Assembly: GCA_012033195.1 (NCBI GenBank)
Contig: JAAUSQ010000003.1
Span: 1-55,319, forward strand
From: Chloroflexaceae bacterium
GTDB taxonomy: Bacteria > Chloroflexota > Chloroflexia > Chloroflexales > Chloroflexaceae
DNA: 55,319 bases
Direction: 5' to 3'
The position numbers and the translations under genes are program-made. This document shows, one piece after another, positions 11,081-25,493 of the stretch. The notes under the pieces were generated by a model. It worked only from the letters and a program-made list of their open reading frames with translations. It had not been told where the DNA came from and made no database searches. Every line of letters starts with the position of its first letter. Position 1 is the first letter of the stretch.

Positions 11081-12730
11081 TTACATCCGTACCAGCAGGC
11101 GGGCCAGATCGCGGCGGTATGTCTCGCCGCAAATGCGTTCCCAGCGCTGTGGCACTTCCGTAAAGAGCGTGGCAGATTCGGCGGTGCGGGTGGCGGCATA
11201 GGCTACAACATCAGGCTCAAGTTCGCCGGTACGCTCTTGCAGGCGCTCGATGTAGCCATGCGCTACGGCAATATCTTGCAGTGCGCCGAGATGTTCTTGC
11301 AGCGCTACCAGCGGCTTGAGGGTGCGGTCGGCCTGGTCGCCAAACAGCGGCGCAAACATTTCGAGCACATAGCGCAGGCGTTTGCCTTCAATCCGCGCCT
11401 CGTGCAGTGTAACGCTCTGCGGCTCCATCTCGGCACTGGTATCGATATGGGCTTCGTATGCACGCAGGGCTTCGTAGTTTTGCCAGATCAGGCTGCCCGC
11501 AATATCGCGTACCCGCACGTGCATCGCCCAGTCGTTGGGTGGGGCCGTCATAAACGCCGCAAAATCACGCTTAAAATCGGTGTAGCGCGTGCTATCAAAG
11601 TAGGTCATTGCATCACGGTAGGCGGCCTCGCGGTCGCTGCGGAGCGTGTCAATCAGGCTACTTAGGTCGATGGGAGCATCTTCGGGTTGCCCCTCCTGAT
11701 AGCGGAGCACGCGCCCCAGCAATACATCGGTGTCGCGCATCGGGGCCAGTGCCTGCGCCAGCAGGCGCAGTTCTTTGCGGAAGTAGCGCACGGCGCGCTC
11801 TGGTGCAACGGGGCGGATAATTTGCATGATGGCCCGCAGCCGACGGGTTGCAACCCGCATCTTGTGAACAGGTTCCGGGGTGTCGCCCGCCTGCACACCT
11901 TTTTCTTCAATCAGCAACTGCTGAAAGTAGGTACGCAGCAGTCGCCGCCCCAGGTCGGCCAGTCGATCCTGGGCGGTGAACGTAGGGCGGATGGCAGGCT
12001 TGCCCGCTGGCTCGACGGGTGCTAGATCAGGCGCAGCGGGAGTGTCAACTTCTTCGAGTGTGGCTCGGTCAGTGCTAGCTTCTACATCATCAAGGCGAAT
12101 AGTGTGCGGGGCAATAAAGGCGACTGTACCATTTTCGAATGCCATCGCAGCCACGGCATCGGGGGTGGGAGTATCGGCAATCAGTTCCAGCGAAGGGTTG
12201 AGTACCTTGCGCCACAGATCGGCCTTGCGGTTGGCCCGCTTGAGATCGTCGGCCATGTGGGGCACATCCAGATGCAGGATTGTCTGCTCGTCGGTGATAC
12301 GCAGCGCATTGATGCGGCTGGTCTGTGTTTCGGAGTAGTCAAGCCCATCGGCAATCCGCAGGATTGCGGCGAGCCGCAGGACCATCTGCCGATCTTTGCG
12401 GCCCAGCCGCAGAAAGGCCGGTTCGAGGTGGGCCCGCACTTTCTTGCGATGGAACATTACCAGACACGCAACAACAGCCCGTTCATCTTCATCGAGATCG
12501 GCCAGCGGTTCATCGAGCACAATATCGCGGCCTGCAATATGGTGTTGCTCTTCGTCAACGTGCATGCCCACGTTGTGCAGCAATGCGCCAACTTCGAGCA
12601 GGCGGCGGGCACGTTTGGACATAGCGTGCAGCGGACGCGACTCATCGAACAGTTTGAGCGCAAGGTCGGCGACGTGACGGGCATGCGCTCTGTCTACATC
12701 GTACTGGTCTAGTAATGTTGTAACGTTCAT
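11081..12730 (-). CDS. HD domain plus CHAD domain protein
   Basis: The protein has 549 residues. Residues 1-190 form an HD-type domain (HARHVADLALKLFDES, LLEVGALLHNVGMHVD, AILRIADGLDYS) like the C-terminal part of Ppx/GppA exopolyphosphatases. A linker rich in Ala/Pro/Glu follows. Residues from about 260 form a CHAD domain with the helix start VHKMRVATRRLRAIMQII and the later IEGKRLRYVLEMFAPLFG, whose conserved His/Arg/Lys residues bind polyphosphate in characterised members. The HD metal ligands are only partly conserved (LLHNVGMH in place of HDIG). It follows the CYTH gene by 73 bp on the same strand. A polyphosphate-linked role is inferred from this pairing. Confidence 0.85.
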   Translation of the reverse strand: MNVTTLLDQYDVDRAHARHVADLALKLFDESRPLHAMSKRARRLLEVGALLHNVGMHVDEEQHHIAGRDIVLDEPLADLDEDERAVVACLVMFHRKKVRAHLEPAFLRLGRKDRQMVLRLAAILRIADGLDYSETQTSRINALRITDEQTILHLDVPHMADDLKRANRKADLWRKVLNPSLELIADTPTPDAVAAMAFENGTVAFIAPHTIRLDDVEASTDRATLEEVDTPAAPDLAPVEPAGKPAIRPTFTAQDRLADLGRRLLRTYFQQLLIEEKGVQAGDTPEPVHKMRVATRRLRAIMQIIRPVAPERAVRYFRKELRLLAQALAPMRDTDVLLGRVLRYQEGQPEDAPIDLSSLIDTLRSDREAAYRDAMTYFDSTRYTDFKRDFAAFMTAPPNDWAMHVRVRDIAGSLIWQNYEALRAYEAHIDTSAEMEPQSVTLHEARIEGKRLRYVLEMFAPLFGDQADRTLKPLVALQEHLGALQDIAVAHGYIERLQERTGELEPDVVAYAATRTAESATLFTEVPQRWERICGETYRRDLARLLVRM

Positions 12731-12803
12731 CGATGTTCCTTTCTACCTTGTGGGTACACTACTCCTGATGAAAAATACAGTGGAGGGGAGCGGGTGGAAT
12801 ACC

Positions 12804-13421
12804 TTAAGCTTGCGATAACAGCGCCAACCCGCGAGCCAGTTTTGAGCGCTGTTCAGGGATAAGAGCGGTATACTGTTGCAGGGCTGCCGTGAGTGCGGCG
12901 ATGTCCTCGGGGGTGCCATCGGACAGCAGTTCAATCTCAACCTCGCGAAAGGTGGTACTCTGCCCACCTGCATCGATGGTTGCTTCATCCAGGCTTACTT
13001 CGGCAACAGCCCGATTATCGCGCAGGGCGAGGCGGCGCTGTCGCAGGGTGCGGATGGTCAGGCGTTCTTCGAGGTGCGCTTCGCCGAGCAGTTCGAACGC
13101 TTTCTCACGGGCCTCGCCCGCAGGCCAGGTAGCCGGGTGCGGGTCGGTGGCTTCTACTTCCCATTCGCCACGCTGAAAAACACCATCGCGGGCTTCTTCC
13201 TGCCCCTTGAGCGTGGCAATATGGCGGTCGCCCACCGTGCGGATACGAAGCCCGTAGCGCTGCTGCTCCAATGTGCGCTCAGCGGTATCGTAATAGGTAT
13301 TGCGCTGCTCTTCGCTGTCTTCCATCTGAAGTGTATAATGTTCAAGACGGGATAACCCCGCCAGTATCTCCAGATCGGCAGCGGTAGCAAGGCGGTATTT
13401 CGCTTCGATTTCTTGACCCAT
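12804..13421 (-). CDS. CYTH domain protein (triphosphate tunnel enzyme family)
   Basis: The protein has 205 residues. It starts with the signature EIEAKYRL (ExExK), followed by alternating charged strands (YYDTAERTLEQQRYGLRIRT, ATLKGQ, RGEWEVEA, LTIRTLRQRRLALR, AEVSLDEATID, FREVEIEL) that form the eight-stranded tunnel. CYTH enzymes hydrolyse tripolyphosphate, thiamine triphosphate or related substrates, or act as adenylate cyclases in a few cases. Pairing with CHAD points to inorganic polyphosphate. ATG at 13421 was preferred over an upstream TTG at 13433. An extended -10 (TGCTATAAT) lies at 13463-13468 on this strand. Confidence 0.85.
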   Translation of the reverse strand: MGQEIEAKYRLATAADLEILAGLSRLEHYTLQMEDSEEQRNTYYDTAERTLEQQRYGLRIRTVGDRHIATLKGQEEARDGVFQRGEWEVEATDPHPATWPAGEAREKAFELLGEAHLEERLTIRTLRQRRLALRDNRAVAEVSLDEATIDAGGQSTTFREVEIELLSDGTPEDIAALTAALQQYTALIPEQRSKLARGLALLSQA

Positions 13422-13575
13422 TGTAGCTACCAATATAGAATGCTGAGACTATATGAAATAGTATTATAGCACAGTTCTTATGGACTATGTACAGCGACTC
13501 CTGTTTTGATATACAATACAAGTCAGGCATTATCACGGGTTGATAGATGCAAAGCATACAGTCTACGTATTACGT

Positions 13576-14040
13576 ATGGTTACACTAGGCTACAGCACAG
13601 ACACAATCGTCTGTCTTTTGTTCCGGCTCGGCAGCGAAGAATTCGCCCTGCCTGGTACCGTCGTGCGCGAAGTATTGCGCTGGCGCGATCCGACCCCCGT
13701 ACCCAGTGCGCCCACCCTGCTACCCGGTATCATCACTCAGCGGGGGGGGGTGCTCACGGTGGTAGACCTGCGGCGCTTGCTGAGTTTTGCCGCGCCACCG
13801 CCTACCCGCCTGACACGCTATGTCGTGGTGTCGCACGATGGGCTTGAACTGGCGCTGATTGCCGATGCGGTGGTTGACTTGCTGGAACTCCCCGCCTCCA
13901 TCCTGGAAGTGCTGCCGCCGGCTTTTAATCCGCAGCGGGCACAACTGTTGCAGGCGATTGCCAATCGTGGGGGCCGACCGATTGCGCTGCTCGACCCAGC
14001 CGAGCTTGTAACGACGCTCCGCGCCGAGGCACAGGCATGA
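13576..14040 (+). CDS. cheW: CheW-like adaptor protein
   Basis: About 154 residues form a single CheW/SH3-like domain. The pattern is VCLLFRLGSEEFALPGTVVREVLRW, then LLPGIITQRGGVLTVVDLRRLLSF, then VVVSHDGLELALIADAVVDLLELP. CheW couples chemoreceptors to the CheA kinase in the membrane-associated array. It is the first gene of a long co-directional run and its stop overlaps the next start (ATGA). A TACAAT hexamer lies at 13512-13517. The start is not certain, as a TTG at 13540 is also in frame. Confidence 0.82.
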   Translation: MVTLGYSTDTIVCLLFRLGSEEFALPGTVVREVLRWRDPTPVPSAPTLLPGIITQRGGVLTVVDLRRLLSFAAPPPTRLTRYVVVSHDGLELALIADAVVDLLELPASILEVLPPAFNPQRAQLLQAIANRGGRPIALLDPAELVTTLRAEAQA

Positions 14041-14474
14041 ACCTATCGGCGCATATGCTGCTCTCGGTCGAAGTGGCAGGCGCAATGTATGTCGTGCAGC
14101 GTGAGCACATCGGGGCCATGCGGGGCATTTTTCGGCCCGCCGATCTGGAATACCCCGACGAGCATGGTCGTCCGATGCTTACCCGGCGGCTCGCCGACCT
14201 GTTCGCCCTGACGGACAGCGCCGCGCCGCCACCCACGCGCCAGCACGCCCTGATTGTCCCCACCCGCCGCCGCAGCGTGGCGCTGCTGGTTGATCGTGTC
14301 GATGAGCTTGACTTGAGCGGCGCACTGATTAACAACATTCAACCGCTCCCCGATGTGCTGGCCCGCCGACTGGGGCGGCCCTGGTTCAGTGGGGTGCTGG
14401 TCTGGGAAGAGTGGTGTCAGCTTGTGCTCGACCTGCGGCGCATCGCGCAGGATGTGCTGAAGCTTCCAGCATAG
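14037..14474 (+). CDS. second CheW-like protein
   Basis: The protein has 145 residues. It is a diverged CheW-type domain (LLSVEVAGAMYVVQREHIGAM, LTRRLADLFAL, HALIVPTRRRSVALLVDRVDEL). It overlaps the preceding cheW by 4 bp, so translation is coupled. The similarity is weaker than that of its neighbour, and it could act as a pathway-specific coupling protein instead of a true receptor adaptor. Two adjacent CheW-type genes suggest that the array has two coupling positions filled by different paralogues. Confidence 0.68.
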   Translation: MNLSAHMLLSVEVAGAMYVVQREHIGAMRGIFRPADLEYPDEHGRPMLTRRLADLFALTDSAAPPPTRQHALIVPTRRRSVALLVDRVDELDLSGALINNIQPLPDVLARRLGRPWFSGVLVWEEWCQLVLDLRRIAQDVLKLPA

Positions 14475-14586
14475 TCGTTGTATTTGGTGCGGCACTGTGA
14501 TCGTCCAATCAGGCTGGCTGAAAGTCAGCGGCAAGCGTACAGGGTCGTCCTGTGGTTCAAGCGTTCAGCAGCAAGAAGTGTGCACT

Positions 14587-16077
14587 ATGTTTGATCGAAT
14601 GTCTATGACTTCCTCAGTGCTCGATATTCTGGATCCATCGGAGAATGGCAGTAATAGCGATACCTTGATACGCTATATTCTGATTGGTACCATCACGGCG
14701 GGGGTTGCCATTCTGCTTGCGCTGGTGATGGGATTGTTGATCACGAATGTGTTTTCTCGCGATATGGCATTGCCATTTATGGTGATGGCAATCGCAGCCA
14801 TCAGTATATCGCTGCTGGCGTTCCAGTTTCTGCGGCGCAACAATCTAATTGCAGCGATGCGAATTTACTCGTATAGCATGGTGTTTATTCTTACGATTGC
14901 CGCACTGTACTATGGCGGCGCTGGTAGCCCGCTGCTGGTGGCGTACCTTGCGCCGATTTCGATTATGGGCCTGCTGGCGACCGATATGGACAACGGGGCG
15001 ATCAGCATCTGGGCGGCAGTCTGCTTTTTTGCACTGCTGGTGCTCCAGCCAACGGGCCTGCGCCCGATCAGTGGCGAGGTCGTCTTTGTCATGCTGGTAG
15101 TACTGGGCATAACAATCGGGTTGCTGGCCTCGATCACCGCATCGGTGCGCCGCAGCCTCAAGGCTGCGCTCGAAGAGTCGCACGCCCGCGCCGAGAAGAT
15201 TATGGCCGATACCGAGCGGATGATTGAAAAGGGCGTGCAGCAGATGGAACTGGGCAGCGAGCTATCGGCGGCGGCTTCGGAGTTGCAAGCCACCTCGCAG
15301 CAGCAGGCCAGCGGTGCCGCAGAACAGGCTAGCGCCGTGTCACAGGTCAGTACCACGGTGGAGGAGCTTGGTGCAACGGCCCGCCAGATTGCCCAGACTG
15401 CCGAGCACGTGGCGCAGGCGGCGCAGCAGACGCTTGAGCACCTGAGCAGCGGGCAGACCGCCGTAGACGAAACAATCCAGTCAATGGAGCGTATCCGGGT
15501 GCGGATGCAGGATATTTCGGTGCGGGTGCTGGGCCTCGGCGAACGGTCGCAGCAGATCGGCGAGATTATCGACCTGATTGACGATATCTCTGATGAAACG
15601 CACCTGCTCGCGCTCAATGCCGCTATCGAAGCGGCGGGTGCCGGCGAACACGGGCGGCGCTTTAGCGTGGTGGCGGCAGAAGTAAAGAACCTTGCCAACC
15701 GCACCTTGCAGGCCGCCAAAGAGGTGAAAGACGTGATTGCCGAGATACGGCAGGCCACCAACTCGGCGGTATTGGCGGCGGAAGAGGGCGGCAAAGAAGT
15801 GGCTATCGGTTCGGAACTGACCTACCGCGCTGGTCAGGTGATGGATACCATTTTGATGATGGCCGAGCGCACCGCCCAGAGTGCGGCAGAAATTGGCATG
15901 GCGACGGCACAGCAGCAAAGTGCCAGTGAGCAAGTGGTAGAGGCGATGCGCGAAATTGCGGAAGTGGCCCGCCAGACGGCCAGCGGTGCCCGCCAGATGG
16001 CTGAGTCATCGGCGATGCTGGCCGCAATTGCCGACCGCCTGCTGGGGGTAGCGCAGGGGCAGCAGTACGAACATTAG
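14587..16077 (+). CDS. methyl-accepting chemotaxis protein with a polytopic membrane sensor
   Basis: About 496 residues. The N-terminal 200 residues contain about six membrane helices and no large extracellular loop, so the signal is probably sensed in or at the membrane. A long coiled coil follows, with the kinase-control tip motif ETHLLALNAAIEAAGAGEHG and RRFSVVAAEVKNLANRT. ATG 14587 was chosen because the 30 codons before it do not look like protein. It lies between the CheW genes and cheA. No HAMP domain was evident. The receptor could respond to membrane state, energy status or redox, but this is inference. Confidence 0.88.
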   Translation: MFDRMSMTSSVLDILDPSENGSNSDTLIRYILIGTITAGVAILLALVMGLLITNVFSRDMALPFMVMAIAAISISLLAFQFLRRNNLIAAMRIYSYSMVFILTIAALYYGGAGSPLLVAYLAPISIMGLLATDMDNGAISIWAAVCFFALLVLQPTGLRPISGEVVFVMLVVLGITIGLLASITASVRRSLKAALEESHARAEKIMADTERMIEKGVQQMELGSELSAAASELQATSQQQASGAAEQASAVSQVSTTVEELGATARQIAQTAEHVAQAAQQTLEHLSSGQTAVDETIQSMERIRVRMQDISVRVLGLGERSQQIGEIIDLIDDISDETHLLALNAAIEAAGAGEHGRRFSVVAAEVKNLANRTLQAAKEVKDVIAEIRQATNSAVLAAEEGGKEVAIGSELTYRAGQVMDTILMMAERTAQSAAEIGMATAQQQSASEQVVEAMREIAEVARQTASGARQMAESSAMLAAIADRLLGVAQGQQYEH

Positions 16078-16136
16078 ACCGTCGGTGGTTCTCGCCTGAG
16101 GCTGCGGCCTCGTTGGATGCATGCAGTACATGGGCT

Positions 16137-18464
16137 ATGGATCTGTCTGTTTTCTACAACCAGTTTCGCGAGGAAACAACCGAGAATCTGCGGATCTTCG
16201 GCTCTGATCTGCTTGAACTGGAACGGGTTACCGATCCGGCTGCGCCCGAAGCCCGCGAGCGGCTGAACCAGATGTTTCGTGCCATCCATACCGTCAAAGG
16301 CTCGTCGCGTATGCTGGGCTTCGGACAGATCGGGCAGTTGGCCCACACGATGGAAAGCCTGCTTGGGAATCTGCGCGACGGCAAACAGGTGCTCACCCGT
16401 GAACTGACCGATGCGCTGCTGCGGAGTAGCGATGCCCTGCTGACGATGACCAACGATGCGGTTGAAGGGCGCACCACCGCAGTTTGATATTCAGCCTTTG
16501 CTGGCGGCCTTCGGTGAGGTGCAGAGGAGCACGCCTGCCCCGCCTGCGGCTCCACCGCTGCGCCGGGTGCGTGTGCCGAAGGCTCCACTGGGCAAGACCC
16601 CCCCCCGCCACCTGTTGTATCTCGCCCCACCTGGAGCCTGCCCCTGCTGTTGTCGGCCCTGCCACGCCAGCGACACAGGCCCCCCCCCCACGCCTGCTGC
16701 TGCGCCGGTTGCACGCGGACGCAGTGCGGCTATAGCAACTATCCGGGTACGCACCGACCGCCTCGATCAGCTTATCAACCTGACGGGTGAACTGGTGATC
16801 GGTGAGCAGGCACTGACTGCACACGATATGGCATTGCGCGAAATGATTGCCCTGCAACAGCAGCAGATGCGCGGCTTGCTGGCGCTCGAAGGTGATATCC
16901 ATCAGCTCACCATACCCCAGGCGCGGCGCGAGTTGTTAGCACAACAGGTCAACAGCCTGCTAAATGTGAGCGAACGCATGTACCGCCAGTTGCGCGAAGA
17001 GTACGAGCAGTTTCAGCGCTATGCCAACCATCAGCATACCCTGCTGGGTGATCTCGAAGAAGAAGTGATTAACACCCGGCTGCTCCCGATTTCAAACCTG
17101 TTTGCAACCCTGCCGCGTGCCGTGCGCGAACTGTCGCACGAGACCGGCAAAGAAATCAATCTGGTCATCCACGGTGAAGAAACCGAGCTTGACCGCAAGT
17201 TGCTCGAAGCACTGAGCGACCCGCTGCTCCATATTGTTCGCAATGCGATTGATCACGGCATCGAGCCGCCCGATCTGCGCACCGAGCGGGGCAAGCCGCT
17301 TAAAGGGTTGATCGAGGTACGCGCCGAGGCAACCAGCGGCAAAGTGCGTATTACGGTGCGCGACGATGGGCGCGGTATCGACCGCAGCGGATGCGGCACG
17401 TTGCGGTGCAGCGCGGGTTGGTCAACGCAGAGCACGCGGCCCGCCTGACCGACCGGGAAGCGCTGGATCTGATTTTCCTGCCCGGCTTTACGACTGCCAC
17501 CCTGATCACCGATATATCGGGGCGCGGCGTGGGGATGGATGTTGTACGCACCAATATCAGCGAGTTGAGCGGGCAGGTGTTGCTAGAATCGCAACTGGGC
17601 GAGGGTACCACCATTACGCTGCTGCTGCCGATGACGCTGGTGACAACGCGGGTTGTGCTGGTGCAGGTGGGCACGCAGATGTTTGGCTTGCCCGCCGCCG
17701 GGTGCCAGGGCATTGTCTGGGTGTATCAGAGCGATATCTACCCCATTGAGGGCCAGTCAACGATGTATTATGATGGGCGTACGGTGCCGGTGGTCACGCT
17801 GGCAGATTTGCTGGTGATCGAAGCCCGCCCGCTCTTTGCGTTGGATGAGCGTATGCCTGCCGTGTTGCTTGGCGATGGGCAGCGCCTGGTGGCAATGCTG
17901 GTGGAGCGTATTATCGATGAACGTGAGGCCGTGATTAAGCCGGTTGGCCCGCTGATCGAACGGCAGCGCGTCTACAGTGGTGCTATTCAGCTTGGCGATG
18001 GGCGGGTGGTGTTGCTGCTCAATCCGATGGTGCTGTTGCAGGCGGCCAGCGGCATCTGGGGCACACCCGCCGAAGCCCCAACCGAGATAGAAAATCAGTA
18101 TCATCTGCTGATTGCCGATGACTCGTTTACTACCCGCGAACTGGTTCGGAGCATCCTGCAATCGGCAGGGTATCAGGTGACGGCTGCCGTCGATGGGCGT
18201 GACGCGCTTGACAAACTGCGTACTCATCCCTACGATCTGGTAGTAAGTGATGTGGAGATGCCACGCCTGGATGGATTTCAGCTCACCGCCAGCATCCGCC
18301 AGGAGTTGGGTCTGAAGGAACTTCCTGTTATCATTGTAACAAGTCTGGCCTCCGACGAACACAAACGCCGTGGAATGGAGGTTGGAGCGCAGGCATATAT
18401 CGTAAAAAGCCAGTTCAACCAGGATAATCTGTTGCGCACTATCGAGCAGTTGCTCGGTCGCTAG
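16137..18464 (+). CDS. cheA: hybrid chemotaxis histidine kinase CheA with C-terminal receiver (several frameshifts)
   Basis: Reassembled, the gene encodes about 775 residues. The order is an HPt domain (His51 in AIHTVKGSSRMLGF), a Pro/Ala-rich linker, dimerisation helices, an ATPase domain (HIVRNAIDHGIE, VRDDGRGID, ISGRGVGMDVV), a CheW-like regulatory domain, and a receiver domain (LLIADDSFTTRELVRS, DLVVSDVEMPRLDGFQL). Breaks occur near 16467 (one extra G) and near 17382 (one missing C). The linker probably shifts again at the C9 run 16598-16606 and the C10 run 16680-16689. CheA autophosphorylates in response to receptors and passes phosphate to CheY, CheB and its own receiver. The receiver probably acts as a phosphate sink or an output. 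Confidence 0.92.
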
Positions 18465-18539
18465 CCGTGTGTGCAGCGATGCTGGCCTGTGGATACAAAC
18501 TGGTGAGCAGCACTCTGCATAGTCGATAGAGGTTGTGGA

Positions 18540-18902
18540 ATGGCAGAAAAAATTCTGGTTGTGGACGATAGTCGTCTGGTGACTGATATTGTCAAGATGC
18601 GGCTGGAGATGCACGGTTATACTGTGCGATTGGCCCACAGCGGCGAAGAGGCCCTGGAACGGATTGCTGATGAAGTGCCCGATTTAATGGTGTTGGATGT
18701 GCAGATGCCGGGGATGGATGGCTACGAGGTATGCCGCCGCCTGCGCGAAAACCCGGCACTGGATGACCTGCGGATTATTATGCTGACATCGAGCGAAGAT
18801 AAACAGGCTGCGTTCGAGGCAGGGGTGGATGATTATTTAAACAAGGACGTTGATCTGCTCAACCTGCCCAATCGCGTCAAGCTGGTGCTCGAAATGACAT
18901 AG
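18540..18902 (+). CDS. cheY: CheY-like single-domain response regulator
   Basis: The protein has 120 residues and is a receiver domain only. It has the acidic pair Asp9/Asp10, phospho-acceptor Asp53 in VLDVQMPGMDG, Thr83 in IIMLTSSE and Lys102 in YLNKDVD. It is preceded by GAGG at a good distance. It lies between cheA and cheB in the same direction and is the expected diffusible output of the array. With no flagellar motor in this lineage, the target is probably the type IV pilus or gliding machinery, or the downstream partner-switching proteins. Confidence 0.88.
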   Translation: MAEKILVVDDSRLVTDIVKMRLEMHGYTVRLAHSGEEALERIADEVPDLMVLDVQMPGMDGYEVCRRLRENPALDDLRIIMLTSSEDKQAAFEAGVDDYLNKDVDLLNLPNRVKLVLEMT

Positions 18903-18918
18903 AGGTACATGCTCCCCA

Positions 18919-20142
18919 ATGACACACTATGAAAAGGAACCATCTTCTGGGGGGCTGGAAGTAGGGCGAGGCGGGCCGATACGGGTTTTAGTTGTGGATG
19001 ACTCGCATGTGATGCGGCACGTCCTCCGCCTGATCCTCGAAAGCGATACCGGCATTCGCGTGGTTGGTGAGGCCCGCAACGGACAAGAAGCACTTGAACA
19101 GGCACGGCTGTTGCAGCCCAATGTTATTACCATGGACGTGCGTATGCCCGTCCTCGATGGGTTGGCAACGACCGAACAACTGATGGCCTTTCAGCCGACC
19201 CCTATTCTGGCGGTTACTGGCTCGCTGGCAAGCGCCGAGGTGGATATTGCGTTTCGGATGCTGGCAGCGGGGGCGCTGGATGTGGTGGAGACGCCCGAAC
19301 TGCACAATCAGGGGGCGCTCGATAGCTACCGGCTGATGCTGATACGGCGGGTCAAGTTGCTGGCTGGTATGCGGGTGGTTACGCATCTGCGCGGGCGACG
19401 GTCGGCGCGGCGCTCTGCCGACGAACCCGCAAGCCCCCAACCCGAAACAGTGGCGCGGCGGTTGCTGCCCGCTCCTGCCGAGCCTGTAACACACTGGAGC
19501 GAACGGGTTGGCGGCAGGAGTCAGCTTGAGCAGGCCCGCACGCCACAACGCCCCACCCGGGAAAGGCAGGTGCCCTTCCCGGTAGTGGTGATCGGCTCTT
19601 CGGCAGGGGGGCCGCGTGCCGTGCAGCATATTCTGAATGTGCTGCCTGCTGCGCTGCCTGCCGCAATTGTCATCGCACAGCATATCGCCGAGGGCTTCAG
19701 TGCTGGCTTTGCCGACTGGTTGAATGGTAACAGTGCCTTACAGGTGCAGGTAGCGCAGGAGCAGACAGTGCTCAAGCCGGGGGTGGTGGTGCTGGCCGAC
19801 GATGGCTGTGATATGGTGGTGAGCCAGGACTATTCGGTGATGTTGCGGCGCGTTAGCGGTGTATCGCAACGCCCGCGTCCATCGGTCGATCTGCTAATGG
19901 AGTCGGCTGCTGAGGTGTTCGGGCGACATACGATTGGTGTGTTACTTTCGGGAATGGGCCGCGACGGGGCAGTGGGGCTGCAACGTATCCGGCAGCAAGG
20001 CGGCTACACGCTGGCGCAGAACGAGGCCACCTGCCCAATTTATGGCATGCCACGTGCGGCGATTGAACTAGGGGTGGTTGATGCTATCCTGACCCCTGAC
20101 GCGATTGCTCAGGCTATTCGGGAGCGGTTGGGGATATACTGA
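18919..20142 (+). CDS. cheB: protein-glutamate methylesterase CheB
   Basis: The protein has 407 residues. The N-terminal receiver has phospho-acceptor Asp73 in VITMDVRMPVLDG, then comes an Arg/Pro-rich linker of about 80 residues. The C-terminal methylesterase has the nucleophile region VVIGSSAGGPRAV, the histidine in IAQHIAEGFSAGF and the aspartate in LLSGMGRDGAVG. CheB removes methyl groups from receptor glutamates and gives adaptation together with CheR. It starts 16 bp after cheY. Confidence 0.93.
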   Translation: MTHYEKEPSSGGLEVGRGGPIRVLVVDDSHVMRHVLRLILESDTGIRVVGEARNGQEALEQARLLQPNVITMDVRMPVLDGLATTEQLMAFQPTPILAVTGSLASAEVDIAFRMLAAGALDVVETPELHNQGALDSYRLMLIRRVKLLAGMRVVTHLRGRRSARRSADEPASPQPETVARRLLPAPAEPVTHWSERVGGRSQLEQARTPQRPTRERQVPFPVVVIGSSAGGPRAVQHILNVLPAALPAAIVIAQHIAEGFSAGFADWLNGNSALQVQVAQEQTVLKPGVVVLADDGCDMVVSQDYSVMLRRVSGVSQRPRPSVDLLMESAAEVFGRHTIGVLLSGMGRDGAVGLQRIRQQGGYTLAQNEATCPIYGMPRAAIELGVVDAILTPDAIAQAIRERLGIY

Positions 20143-20165
20143 GCGACGCACCACGCGGCGCACAC

Positions 20166-21793
20166 GTGAAACGAGCAACAAGCGGTATGGTCTTTTCTTT
20201 CGACAACACGTCACACTTGACACGGTTGCTACTGTCACCAGAGCAGTTCGAGTTGGTGCGAACTATTCTGGCAAATTACAGCGGCGTGTATCTCGATATA
20301 GCTAGCCAGCGTGCGTTGTTGGTGGCACTCGATCAGCGCCTTGCCGTAACAGGCCTTGCTCTCGAAGGCTATCTGAACCATATTCAGAAGCCGATTGGTC
20401 GGGCCGAGTTGCAGCACCTTGCGGAATTGCTGCTCAATCATGAAACGATCTTTTTTCGTAATCTCGCACATATGCACGCACTACGCACCCACATTCTGGC
20501 GCACTTGCACGAACGCAAGCCCGTCGGTCAGCCAATCCGGATCTGGAGTGCAGGCTGCTCAACCGGCGAAGAGCCATACTCGCTGGCAATTCTGGCGCTC
20601 GAAAGCTTGGGCTACCCGCTGCCGCGTCCGGTCGAAATTTACGGTACCGACCTGAGCACGGCAGCACTCGCCAGAGCACGCCAGGGTATCTATAAGGGCG
20701 CTCGCTGACAAACGTGGCCTGGGATATGAAGGCGCACTACTTCGAGCATCGTGAGGCAGGCTGGTCGATCCGGCCTGCGGTGCGAAAAATTGTGCGCTTT
20801 GAGCAAGTTAATCTCCTAGAGCCGTTTCCGCAGTGGGCGCAGGGGGTTGATATTATTTTCTGTCAGAATGTCACCATCTATTTTCAGATTGACACCTTCC
20901 GCAGCCTGGTCGAGCGGTTCTACACGTTGCTGCCCGAAGGCGGCATGCTCTTCCTGGGCTTTTCAGAAACGCTGTGGAATGTGTTCGACCGCTTCCGGCT
21001 GCGCGAAATTGGCGGAGCCTTTGTTTATGTCAAAGAGACGCCGCTGCTAACGGCCCCGGCAACCGTGCGCCCCCCTGCGCTACCTGCACAGCCACCCGCC
21101 CCCATCACACAACCGCCTCGTAGCATTCCAAAGCCGCCGACTGCGGCTGACAATCTGGCTTCGCCTATTGACACGGGCCGTGCTCAGCGCATCACACAGC
21201 GGTTGAATGATATGCTGCCACCTGTCGCGCAGCCTGCGCCGATTGATCCTGAGATGCTGGCACGCGGACGGGCGATGTTGGATGCAGGCCAGATGGATGA
21301 GGTGATTGCCCTGTTTGAGCAGATGCCGCCCGGTGGCGCACATACGCCGCAAGCGCTGGCGCTGCTGGCACGTGCCCACGCCAACCGGGGCGATGTGGAA
21401 CTGGCAATAGCGGAAGCACGGCGGGCACTGGCGCTTGATACGCTGACGGTGGATGCCTACGTACTGCTGGGGGTGATTGCCTTGCAGCAGGGGCGCTTCG
21501 CTGAGGCGGTACAGCATCTGGAGCGAGCACGCTACCTCGCGCCCGATGCAGTGCTGATCGCGTTTTATCTGGCAGAAGTATATCGCCAGTTGCAGCGGAT
21601 GGAGGCGGCACTGCGCGAGTATCGCAATACCGAACGCAGCCTGGCCGAACATCCACCCGACCAGATTATCGATGGCGTAGCTGTCGCGTGGCTCCGCGAG
21701 ACGTGTGAACGTTACATTCAGCAACTCGCACGCACCAAACACGACGAGGGTACAAACCCCTGTTTTAATTACTATAAACGGTCGTATCGATGA
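20166..21793 (+). CDS. cheR: chemoreceptor methyltransferase CheR fused to TPR repeats (one frameshift)
   Basis: The N-terminal CheR domain has WSAGCSTGEEPYSLA (SAM-binding), DLSTAALARARQGIY and, after the break, DIIFCQNVTIYF and FLGFSETLW. A Pro-rich linker and about four TPR repeats follow (LALLARAHANRGDVELAIAE, VLLGVIALQQGRFAEAVQHL). The break near 20697-20703 is repaired by adding one G. The canonical FCRNVLIYF motif is changed to FCQNVTIYF, so Arg is replaced by Gln. The stop overlaps the start of the phosphatase gene by 4 bp. TPR fusions in CheR are usually protein-docking modules, here perhaps linking to the partner-switching proteins. The GTG start is uncertain; an ATG lies at 20187. 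Confidence 0.88.
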
Positions 21794-22944
21794 TAGAACA
21801 CGATGATACTCGAGAACAATTGATAAATACCAATGGGCATCGGCAGAGCCATAGCTCGCTGGTGGGGCACCGGGTGCGGTCGCGGCGGCGGGCAGTTCTT
21901 GCTGCCCCCGAACCAGTGACGCCACCTGTACCGGGTGCGCCGGGTACACCGAGTACACCATCCCGCGATGAGCAGCGGCAGGCCGAGCTTGAGCAGGAAT
22001 TGCAACTGGCCCGTGATATTCAGCAGGGTATTTTGCTGGCGGCAGTGCCCTACCTGCCCGGTTGGGAGATGAGCACAGTATCGGTACCGGCCCGCGACCT
22101 GGGCGGCGACCTGTACGACTTTGTGCCGCTGCCCGATGGCAAGCAAGGCATCATGATCGGGGATGTATCGGGGAAGGGCTTGCCCGCTGCGCTGCGGATG
22201 GCAGTAGCACGCACGGTCTTTCGGCACGAGGCACGCAAGGGCGACTCGCCGGGACGCACGCTCGAAGCGGTCAATCGGATTATTTGCAGCGATATTCCGC
22301 AGGGCATGGTCACGATGATCTATATCCAGCTTGACCCGCTGCGGGGCACGATCCGGTTTGCCAATGCGGGGCATACCTACCCGTTTGTGCTGAACGATAC
22401 GGTTGGCGAACTGGAACTCTCCGGCCTGCCGCTCGGCATTTTTGAAGAGAGCGACTATGAAGAAGTTGAGCTTCTGGTTGAGCCGGGTACCAGTATGCTG
22501 CTTTACACCGATGGAGTGACCGAGGCCACCAATGAGGCTGAGGAGATGTTCGGGGCGGCTTCCCTGCCTGCGCTGCTGGAAGCGAATCGGCTGATGAAGC
22601 CGAGCACACTGCAACGGATGCTGCTGCGCGAGTTGCGTACCTGGAACCCGCAGACGATCCAGGATGATGATGTAACGATGGTGGTGATACGGCGGCGCTA
22701 TCTCCATATCTACGACGAATTGTACAACATTGCCGTTGATGTGCTGGGCACAGAACGGGCCGCCAATTTCTGGCAGCAGCACGTGGCAGGGCACGCCGTG
22801 CTGCGTGAGGTGGGGGCCTTGGCGGAAATATGGGCCGATCATCTGCCAGAACTGACGGCAATGGTGCACGAGCAGTTCGGGCGCGGCCTTGCGCGTGAAT
22901 TGCAACAGCAGATGCGGCTGGCGCTGGAAGAGTACCGCCAGTAA
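21790..22944 (+). CDS. SpoIIE/RsbU-type PP2C serine phosphatase
   Basis: The protein has 384 residues. It has a disordered Pro-rich start, a short coiled coil (LEQELQLARDIQQGILLAAVP), and a PPM-type catalytic domain with metal-binding Asp motifs ARDLGGDLYDF, IGDVSGKGLPAALRM and LLYTDGVTEATN. A C-terminal extension of about 100 residues of unknown role follows. Such phosphatases remove phosphate from a Ser of an RsbV-type STAS protein. They thereby release it to bind the RsbW-type kinase. It overlaps cheR by ATGA, which places it directly in the chemosensory operon. Confidence 0.9.
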   Translation: MIEHDDTREQLINTNGHRQSHSSLVGHRVRSRRRAVLAAPEPVTPPVPGAPGTPSTPSRDEQRQAELEQELQLARDIQQGILLAAVPYLPGWEMSTVSVPARDLGGDLYDFVPLPDGKQGIMIGDVSGKGLPAALRMAVARTVFRHEARKGDSPGRTLEAVNRIICSDIPQGMVTMIYIQLDPLRGTIRFANAGHTYPFVLNDTVGELELSGLPLGIFEESDYEEVELLVEPGTSMLLYTDGVTEATNEAEEMFGAASLPALLEANRLMKPSTLQRMLLRELRTWNPQTIQDDDVTMVVIRRRYLHIYDELYNIAVDVLGTERAANFWQQHVAGHAVLREVGALAEIWADHLPELTAMVHEQFGRGLARELQQQMRLALEEYRQ

Positions 22945-22994
22945 GTGGTCGAAAATGGCAGACCGTTGCTAGACATAAAGTACTAGGAAAAGCC

Positions 22995-23023
22995 GTGACA
23001 ACGACCGTTGACTGTGGTATCAT
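22995..23023 (+). promoter_or_regulatory. candidate promoter for the TPR-rsbW-rsbV unit
   Basis: GTGACA (22995-23000), a 17-bp spacer and TATCAT (23018-23023). Each hexamer is one change from consensus. It overlaps the dyad at 23008-23040. Confidence 0.5.
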
Positions 23024-23040
23024 TACTAATCCACGGTCAA
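23008..23040. repeat. operator-like inverted repeat over the -10 region
   Basis: Two 10-bp arms, TTGACTGTGG (23008-23017) and CCACGGTCAA (23031-23040), match in inverted orientation at 9 of 10 positions around a 13-bp centre. The dyad covers the predicted -10 and start site, a typical repressor position. Confidence 0.45.
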
Positions 23041-23136
23041 AATAGCTGATGTGCAAGCGGTAGAGTACGAATAGAAATAGTAGCGTGCCAAGTGAAAGCA
23101 ACAATCGCAGGTAAGGAACCGGTACGGGGTTTTGCT

Positions 23137-24709
23137 ATGGCTACAAATGAACCACTCCTGTTTATGCCGCTCGACCTGGATACTTTTTCTGGGAGTGAGC
23201 GCTTTATGGAAGGTACGCAGATGGGGGCTGCCTTCAGCCAGGGTATCCGGCTCTACCTGCGGGCTGCCTATGCTGAGGCTATCGAACAATTTCGCAAAGC
23301 GCTGACTGCCGCCTATGTGGAGGGCGAAGAGAAGGCCCAGATTTACGAGCGCGAACGGGCTATCATTTACCTCTATATCGGCAATGCCCTGGTGTTCCAG
23401 GAGAAGTGGGAAGATGCCCAGCGTGAGTACCTGGAAGCCGTGCAGACTGACCAGAAGCTTGCCGAGCACACTACACCTGGGCGTGTCGTTTGCATCAATG
23501 GGGCAGATCGACAGTGCCATTAACGCCTTCAAGAAAGCACTGGAACACAACCCCAACCTGTACGAAGCCCATTTTTCGCTGGGGCGCAGTTATCAACGCC
23601 TAGACGATGCAGGGCGGGCCTACATTCACTATTCCAATGCGTGCAACACCCGCCCACACGCCGCCGAGCCGCGCTATTACCTCGGCTTGATGCACCAGAG
23701 CCACGGTGCCCACGAGCTGGCAAAACGCTGCTTTGCCGAGGCGCTGCGGGTGGAGCCGACCTTTATTTCGCCGGAGGTTGAAGAAGACGAAACGCTGATC
23801 AATCGCAGCGAAGAAGAGGTTGTGCAGTGGTATTACCGCCTGAGCGACGACCTGAAGCATCAGGGTTACGAAGAAGAGGCCGAGCGTATTTATCGGGCGC
23901 TGTTGCAGTGGCGACCGATTGAATACACGGCGCACTATCTGCTGGGCAACCTGCTGGCGCGTACCCGGCGCTGGGACGAGGCGCTGGGCGAGTACGGGTC
24001 GATACCGCCGCAGGATAAGCACTATGTCACGGCCCGCCTGCGGATGAGTGCAGTGCTACGGTTGCTGAAGAAGACCAAAGAAGCCTACGAATTGCTGTAT
24101 GAGTGTGCCAAGCTGCACCCCGGCAATGGGCAACTCTTCCTGAGTATGGGCAAATTGCTCTACGATATGGGGCGGCTCTCGGCGGCGCGGCGGGCCTTCG
24201 AGCGGGCCGTGCAACTCCTACCGCAAGACCCACAGGCCAACTACCTGCTGGGCTTCCTGTATATGACGCTGGGGCGCGAAAACTGGACGCTAGCGGCGTG
24301 GCGCAAGGCGGTAGAACTGGCCCCCGATAGCCATTCGTTGCGCTACGACCTGGGCTATATCTACGTGCGGCGCGGGCGCTACGACCTCGCGGCGCGTGAG
24401 TTTGAATATGTGCTCGATAAATGGCCGGAGGATGTCGAGACCAACTTTATGCTCGGCCTGTGCTACAAGGAACTGATGGAGCCTGGTCGGGCGATTGCGC
24501 TCTTCGAAAAAGTGCTGCGCCGTAACCCGCGCCACTCACAGGCGCTCTTCTACCTGGGAGCCTGTTATCTCCAGATTGGCAATACATCGCTTGGGAAGGC
24601 GTATCTGCGGCGCTACGACCATCTGCTGCGGCAGAACCAAACCACCTATGCAGCCCAACGCAATGGACGCTTGCAACGCCCGGTGCCGTCGATCAGTTCA
24701 TCAATGTAA
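23137..24709 (+). CDS. tetratricopeptide repeat protein (one frameshift)
   Basis: About 520 residues made almost wholly of TPR units (for example EAIEQFRKAL, AIIYLYIGNALVFQEKWEDA, EAHFSLGRSYQRLDDAGRAY, LGFLYMTLGRENWTLAAWRK, LGLCYKELMEPGRAIALFEK). It has no signal peptide, so it is a cytoplasmic scaffold. The frame breaks near 23465-23480. The upstream part ends in LEAVQTDQKLAE and the downstream part resumes with LHLGVSFASMGQID. It lies between the phosphatase and the RsbW-like kinase. A scaffold that holds chemosensory or partner-switching proteins together is plausible but not shown. Confidence 0.85.
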
Positions 24710-24729
24710 TCTGGTGGAGCGCAGAGGAA

Positions 24730-25170
24730 ATGGGTATGGAACGCATTGAAGTACATATTCCTTCAGATCTGACCTTTGAGCGGGTTGTGCGGGCCAGCAC
24801 CGACGAGATCGGCAAGGTGCTGGAGATCCCGACGGATCGCCTCGAAGATCTCAAGCTGGCCGTGAGCGAAGCCGTGTGTAATGCTATCGAACATGGCAAC
24901 CAGCAAATGGCAGATAAGCTCGTAATGGTCGTTTTTACAGTAGATACAGAAAAGCTCGAAGTTCACGTTATTGATCAAGGAACCGGTGTCGATATCGAAC
25001 GGCTCGACTTTTCTGAGCAACACGTGGAAGATGCCCACATCGAAGGGGAGGGGCGACGCGGCTTTGGCATGTTCCTGATCAGCGCATTGGTAGACCAGTA
25101 CGAGGTAAAATCTTCGGAAGAAGGCACAACATTGACCCTACGTCTGTATCGGAAGGAAATCGAACCATGA
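24730..25170 (+). CDS. RsbW-type serine kinase / anti-sigma factor homologue
   Basis: The protein has 146 residues and one GHKL ATPase domain. The N-box is SEAVCNAIEHGN (Asn51), the G1 box is VIDQGTGVD, and the G2 box is RRGFGMFLISALVD. The size and layout match RsbW/SpoIIAB, which phosphorylates the RsbV partner on serine and otherwise sequesters a sigma factor or other target. Its stop overlaps the rsbV-like start by ATGA. No sigma factor gene is adjacent, so the sequestered target is unknown. Confidence 0.9.
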   Translation: MGMERIEVHIPSDLTFERVVRASTDEIGKVLEIPTDRLEDLKLAVSEAVCNAIEHGNQQMADKLVMVVFTVDTEKLEVHVIDQGTGVDIERLDFSEQHVEDAHIEGEGRRGFGMFLISALVDQYEVKSSEEGTTLTLRLYRKEIEP

Positions 25171-25493
25171 CAACACTCGTAGAACGCGAAAAGTTTGGCG
25201 AGGTCGTTATTCTGCATATTCGTACCAATAGCATTGATGCCGTATCTGCCGCATCGATAGAGGCGAGTTGCAATGAGATGCAGCCGATTACCGTGCTGAA
25301 CTTTCGTGAGGTGGCATTCATCAACTCGGCAGGCATTTCGGTATTGCTCAAGTTTGTGGTCAAAGCACGCAAGGCCGGCTACAAGCTGTTTGCGATGAAC
25401 CTGAGCCCGCACCACCAGAAAATCTTCAAAATGGTAGAAATGTCGCGTTTTATGCCCACCATTGAAGAACGCGACCTTGCGGCCTATCGCTGA
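25167..25493 (+). CDS. RsbV-type STAS anti-anti-sigma factor homologue
   Basis: The protein has 108 residues and is a single STAS domain. The phosphorylatable serine region is FREVAFINSAGISVLLKF (Ser54 in the position of the DSxG serine). In known systems the unphosphorylated form binds the RsbW-type kinase, and the PP2C protein restores that form. It is the last gene of the run. About 60 bp further on, a new promoter starts the Uma2 gene. Confidence 0.9.
   Translation: MTTLVEREKFGEVVILHIRTNSIDAVSAASIEASCNEMQPITVLNFREVAFINSAGISVLLKFVVKARKAGYKLFAMNLSPHHQKIFKMVEMSRFMPTIEERDLAAYR

Follow-up and report, generated by a model that had tools for sequence, protein, structure and literature searches.

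We describe a gene cluster of a Chloroflexaceae bacterium in which a chemosensory system and a partner switch, both of known kinds, are joined. The cluster lies in a 55,319-nt stretch of DNA (positions 1 to 55,319 of contig JAAUSQ010000003.1, assembly GCA_012033195.1; hereafter the window) from a draft of 430 contigs that is 86.9% complete (G000:C397), and it comprises 11 co-directional genes on the + strand at 13576-25493, from CheW through to an RsbV-like STAS protein, as identified from open reading frames (ORFs) and Pfam matches. Recurrence of the gene order on the same strand in ~30 relatives is far beyond chance. The cluster suggests that the output of the sensor array is a protein-level on/off switch governing surface movement and not a factor that controls gene expression. 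We assign a probability of about 0.5 to the reading that it forms one signalling device, in which the array controls the partner switch and the switch has a target in gliding other than a sigma factor. Linkage of the chemosensory and switch genes is observed directly, whereas we infer the direction of signalling and the target. The features of the cluster are as follows.

13576-14040, + strand: cheW (Pfam CheW 1.8e-27; place kept in relatives)
14037-14474, + strand: second, divergent CheW-like protein, CheW2 (Pfam CheW 20.9 bits, under the cut-off)
14587-16077, + strand: methyl-accepting chemotaxis protein, MCP (MCPsignal 1.1e-39; six membrane helices predicted by hydropathy)
16137-18464, + strand: cheA with a C-terminal receiver (REC), frameshifted (single ORF of ~740-880 aa in relatives)
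18540-18902, + strand: cheY-like single receiver (Response_reg 8.3e-29)
18919-20142, + strand: cheB, receiver plus methylesterase (CheB_methylest 3.4e-59; NCBIfam CheB over the cut-off)
20166-21793, + strand: cheR with a C-terminal TPR domain, frameshifted (single ORF of ~510 aa in relatives)
21790-22944, + strand: PP2C (SpoIIE-type) phosphatase (SpoIIE 5.2e-49)
22995-23023, + strand: promoter-like site between the PP2C and TPR genes (10/12 consensus positions; consensus match only)
23137-24709, + strand: TPR scaffold protein, frameshifted (orthologues 58-86% identical in 67/82 genomes)
24730-25170, + strand: RsbW/SpoIIAB-like serine kinase (HATPase_c_2 2.3e-24; PDB RsbW 6m36 2e-21)
25167-25493, + strand: RsbV/SpoIIAA-like STAS protein, predicted phospho-acceptor Ser54 in FINSAG (STAS 2.3e-9)

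The proteins encoded in the first part of the cluster place it in the chemosensory (MCP-CheW-CheA) class: an MCP signalling domain, CheW, receivers and the HPt, dimerisation, ATPase and CheW domains of CheA were all found, and CheB and the CheR-TPR fusion provide both enzymes of methylation adaptation. No ligand-binding domain was recognised in the MCP. The position of CheW2 is kept in two families, and its counterpart in L145, a locus outside the order Chloroflexales, matches Pfam CheW at 3.9e-7. All genes named in an earlier description drawn from this DNA by eye (the sequence-only reading) are present, in one direction and at the positions given there, with Pfam support that is weak for CheW2; that description of the genes was right, but it had overlooked the frameshifts in cheA, cheR and the TPR gene.

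We searched 82 genomes of the order Chloroflexales, whose members are filamentous and for the most part glide, for orthologues and fetched 40 loci. Relatives were found with a profile of the TPR protein, while a contig scan by PP2C patterns alone gave none. Orthologues of the TPR protein occur in 67 genomes, of PP2C in 63 and of RsbV in 62, and by hand count 31 of the 40 loci, spread over all four families of the order, have an unbroken run of genes from MCP to RsbV, with order and strand unchanged. Carriers of the cluster include Chloroflexus islandicus, Roseiflexus, Herpetosiphon aurantiacus DSM 785, Oscillochloris and Candidatus (Ca.) Viridilinea, and a partial contig of Kouleothrix carries it as well. 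The flanks, CHAD/CYTH upstream and Uma2 downstream, are common only to genus g10, so the conserved block ends at the limits that the sequence-only reading had drawn. The upstream neighbours, assigned by eye as CHAD/HD-like and CYTH-like genes, occupy window positions 11081-13433 on the minus strand.

Median identity among orthologues differs between members of the cluster. CheY is the most conserved of the set (84%), followed by the TPR protein (75%) and RsbV (74%); RsbW reaches 57%, CheA, CheB, CheR and PP2C 47-58%, and the rest of the set as a whole spans 42-59%. Such slow evolution is what one would expect if CheY, TPR and RsbV had the most contacts.

Departures from the common arrangement are informative about which genes travel together. 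The che genes and the TPR protein persist in Ca. Chloroploca (G014-G016), where no phosphatase or RsbV orthologue was found at the thresholds used. Genome G056 retains the TPR protein alone, the search having found neither CheA nor CheW. TPR, CheA, PP2C and RsbV are jointly absent from genera g34 (11 genomes) and g27 (2 genomes), and no CheW was found in three tested members of these genera. In locus L145 the order is RsbW-RsbV-PP2C-TPR-CheW-CheW2-CheA:REC-CheY-CheR:TPR on one strand, and in G341, from a related lineage, RsbW-RsbV-PP2C-TPR stand without adjoining che genes, with CheW/CheA on another contig. The draft L097 has RsbW and RsbV in inverted orientation close to TPR, and RsbV lies ~30 kb away in some Herpetosiphon, so adjacency is not absolute.

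The distribution of the TPR protein is nested. All RsbV-bearing genomes (62/82) also have TPR (67/82), and TPR occurs in addition with Che only or by itself; as the member common to both sets, it is most simply read as their link. The TPR protein is thus the likely connector of the chemosensory set and the switch, a role for which the sequence-only reading had already named it a candidate. That reading was also right about the linkage, having missed the exceptions in Chloroploca, G056 and G341, and its own test, that the phosphatase, kinase and STAS genes might be absent from this position in related genomes, came out the other way, with order and strand kept in four families. The two systems could instead be neighbours with no functional tie, whose proximity is owed to chance or to joint expression; operons can presumably be stable without protein contact between their products. 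We hold such mere co-inheritance to be very unlikely, because the linkage exists in two gene orders (L145 and Chloroflexales) and in four families and is accompanied by correlated losses.

The spacing of the genes bears on their expression. The cheR stop and the phosphatase start overlap by 4 nt (ATGA, 21790-21793), as had been claimed before, and RsbW and RsbV overlap likewise (25167-25170). With cheR-to-PP2C spacing below 50 nt in most genomes, the phosphatase is, judged by gene layout, firmly part of the che unit. Spacing between PP2C and TPR is 0-16 nt in several genomes of the Herpetosiphonaceae and of family f3, and ~70-770 nt in Chloroflexaceae. Full co-transcription is uncertain because the corresponding gap in the window measures 192 nt and holds the promoter-like site. 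That a further promoter might precede the TPR gene had escaped the sequence-only reading.

The phosphatase itself points to where its input might come from. In an AlphaFold model with a predicted local distance difference test (pLDDT) score of 84 for the protein, it consists of a disordered N-terminus, the phosphatase domain and a confidently predicted C-terminal helical domain at ~307-383. The N-terminus carries a conserved motif, [ST]L[LV]xH; in its wider form, [ST][LM][LVIA]xH, the motif occurs in 26 of 28 sequences, where shuffling would give 0.26. The N-terminal part of the L145 and G341 phosphatases holds at least four to five membrane segments by hydropathy; none were found in the Chloroflexales protein in any of 19 aligned rows. 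The Chloroflexales PP2C would thus have lost a membrane domain of the outgroup type and gained the C-terminal helices and the conserved N-terminal motif. Loss of its own sensor, together with its place behind cheR, makes input from the array plausible. As a tentative and somewhat doubtful extension, the switch may have lost its membrane sensor and been rewired, through the TPR hub and the new docking motif and helical domain of PP2C, to the chemoreceptor array, which would then drive non-flagellar gliding through serine phosphorylation of the STAS protein. Structure searches matched PP2C to SiaA (6k4e) and RssB (3f79); the best matches span the phosphatase part only, and no PDB match covers the C-terminal helical domain. 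Derivation of the MCP membrane domain from the ancestral phosphatase was also considered and is unsupported (hhalign probability 9%).

Information could also run the other way: by way of TPR, RsbV or its state of phosphorylation would act on CheA, CheR or the position of the array and so set sensitivity. The soluble phosphatase inside the che transcription unit is compatible with this, as is the TPR protein of Chloroploca, which stays with Che after loss of the switch in the manner expected of an optional input. However, the array already possesses CheB/CheR adaptation, and a phosphatase without a sensory domain of its own, compared with the membrane-domain outgroups, argues for input from elsewhere. 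We regard a reversed flow as unlikely.

The catalytic equipment of the switch is intact. The metal ligands D107, D125, D241 and D293/D294 of PP2C are invariant in 19 rows, as are Ser54 of RsbV and its flanking NSxGIS motif, and in the RsbW-like kinase the N-box and G-box residues E47, N51, D82, G84, G86 and F112-G113 are invariant in 18 rows. RsbV is predicted to adopt a STAS fold (AlphaFold pLDDT 90.6), in which Ser54 aligns with the acceptor serine of TM1442 and SpoIIAA at the start of helix 2. The kinase matches Bacillus RsbW (PDB 6m36, 2e-21) and SpoIIAB in both kinase class and fold; the NCBIfam equivalog cut-offs for RsbW and for the antagonist were not reached. As catalytic, ATP-binding and acceptor residues are all invariant, partner-switch chemistry is expected of the three proteins. 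RsbV (25167-25493) further matches the cyanobacterial slr1659 STAS superfamily under the cut-off (33.9 of 100 bits), which might hint at a relationship with STAS regulators of cyanobacteria.

Phosphatases, kinases and switch proteins of the PP2C/RsbW/RsbV type usually control sigma factors elsewhere. A classical switch of this sort, in which a sigma factor encoded elsewhere is sequestered by RsbW and chemotaxis proteins are co-regulated with a transcriptional response, with no direct protein link from the switch to the array, would account for a kinase that resembles RsbW/SpoIIAB in kinase class and fold. It would also agree with the several sigma-70-type factors in each genome and with the PP2C-TPR gap, where the promoter-like site hints that the two parts can be regulated separately in Chloroflexaceae. 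Yet none of the 82 genomes encodes a SigB/F/G-type sigma factor over the curated TIGR02980 cut-off (1 of 14 control genomes exceeds it), and no sigma gene adjoins RsbW in the examined loci, which extends the earlier remark that none stands next to the kinase. The strict co-occurrence with TPR and the slower evolution of RsbV relative to RsbW fit RsbV as the output instead. We therefore consider a classical sigma switch improbable.

Under the preferred reading of one signalling device, the following sequence of events would be expected. A methylation-adapting array of MCP, CheW, CheA, CheY, CheB and CheR would set the activity of the soluble PP2C; the docking platform would be the TPR protein, possibly together with the TPR domain of CheR. 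PP2C and the RsbW-like kinase would together set the phosphorylation of Ser54 in the RsbV-like STAS protein, and the output would be unphosphorylated RsbV or freed RsbW. The target of this output may be something other than a sigma factor, through which gliding and the surface apparatus behind it are modulated, as proposed for HmpU/W/V of Nostoc. Physical contact between the two sets, the direction from array to phosphatase, RsbV as the output and gliding as the process are the parts of this scheme that we infer.

The closest comparison is with the Hmp proteins of Nostoc punctiforme, in which chemotaxis-like HmpA-F and the HmpU/W/V partner switch operate in a gliding filament, and the STAS protein is proposed as output with no known sigma factor (PMC8256260, PMC6495340). 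Both systems combine chemosensory proteins with PP2C, RsbW-like and STAS proteins in gliding filaments, a likeness at the level of gene classes. The hmp genes carry separate locus tags (hmpA-F Npun_R5959-F5964, hmpU/hmpW R5135/R5134, hmpV F5169; PMC10581220) and do not form one cluster, whereas the genes described here do; the Chloroflexales system also has a dedicated TPR protein, CheB, CheR:TPR and a soluble phosphatase. The reported pilus type differs as well, Chloroflexales lacking key type IV pilus genes and having Tad pili (PMC7332563).

Compared with the Bacillus systems RsbU-RsbW-RsbV and SpoIIE-SpoIIAB-SpoIIAA, the Chloroflexales switch has the same three folds and catalytic residues but no SigB/F/G-type sigma factor over the cut-off; it has a TPR partner, lies inside a che cluster and carries the acceptor motif N-S-A-G rather than D-S-(A/S/T)-G. 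In Pseudomonas, HsbR/HsbA and SiaABC pair a PP2C with an antagonist-like protein that controls motility or biofilm without a classical sigma output, and phosphatases of the HsbR/SiaA type carry their own REC or membrane sensor. The Chloroflexales phosphatase differs from these in having no sensor of its own and in following a full che operon. Alternative, non-flagellar chemosensory systems such as Frz, Dif and Pil-Chp likewise consist of MCP-CheW-CheA with receivers and adaptation enzymes in surface-moving bacteria; their clusters are not known to include partner-switching genes. Our literature search returned no papers on this cluster in Chloroflexales, which is not proof that none exist.

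The locus holds the CheA of Chloroflexus and Herpetosiphon and is the sole chemosensory cluster found in several genomes. A Chloroflexus genome of 4,684,931 bp (G006) has one CheA, in this locus, plus an orphan CheW, and a CheA/CheW census of Herpetosiphon aurantiacus returned this cluster only, including its CheA. Gliding and a response to oxygen are reported for C. aggregans (PMC8004040), and in Ca. Viridilinea cryo-electron tomography revealed chemoreceptor-like arrays near septa, with Tad pili proposed to drive movement (PMC7332563). An assignment of these arrays to the present locus, as the sole CheA of Ca. Viridilinea, was withdrawn after the CheW census turned up a second cluster (G040 C219). 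Through PP2C-RsbW-RsbV and TPR, the locus names a concrete candidate output path for steering the gliding of filamentous Chloroflexota. It also bears on the targets of sigma-free STAS switches such as HmpV, since sensor, switch and scaffold are here genetically joined across the order.

Several points weigh against a single device with a gliding output, a reading drawn from sequence comparison. (i) Sigma factors of other types than SigB/F/G, several of them sigma-70-type, are present in every genome, so that the switch may have an unlinked sigma target. (ii) TPR-RsbW-RsbV may have their own or an additional promoter in Chloroflexaceae. (iii) In the assembly of the window itself, frameshifts interrupt three of the genes. 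(iv) The Tad pilus was rejected as sole target: genus g34 has lost both Tad CpaB and the cluster, yet Herpetosiphon, mostly with weak or no CpaB, keeps the cluster. (v) Chloroploca is reported to be motile (PMC6180586) without the switch, which is thus not required for movement and would modulate rather than enable it.

The frameshifts probably reflect assembly error or decay in the window's organism. Breaks in cheA lie at ~16470-16720 and ~17382, among them two C9 runs in a Pro-rich linker; cheR is broken at ~20699, and the TPR gene carries two 1-nt deletions at ~23466-23474. Relatives are mostly single-frame, with stop-free medians of ~770 aa (cheA), ~510 aa (cheR) and ~540 aa (TPR), so the breaks are private to the window sequence except that in TPR, which is common to a second draft genome. 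Identical deletions (window 23464-23478) occur in G018 (L048/L093) and the motif was found at this gene in no other genome. The TPR tree joins the window to the intact G021/G022 and places G018, of a different genus, elsewhere. These findings speak against a conserved programmed frameshift; a systematic error in sequencing or a recurrent mutation is the likelier cause.

Three further observations concern the surroundings of the cluster in other records. A Chloroflexales-type CheB-CheR-PP2C-TPR stretch, with TPR 77% identical, occurs in a record labelled Candidatus Gracilibacteria (L119, JAAUTF010000469.1), which is probably mis-binned. In L066 (G051) the genes from CheY to RsbV are kept, and an 886-aa ORF lies upstream, where CheA, MCP and CheW were not detected. 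In the Chloroflexaceae loci L053, L054, L052, L062 and L065, a single-domain receiver and/or a protein with REC and HD-GYP-like parts follows RsbV or TPR, and neither is present in the window or g10; motifs recognised by eye make the REC/HD-GYP-like protein a possible cyclic di-GMP (c-di-GMP) phosphodiesterase.

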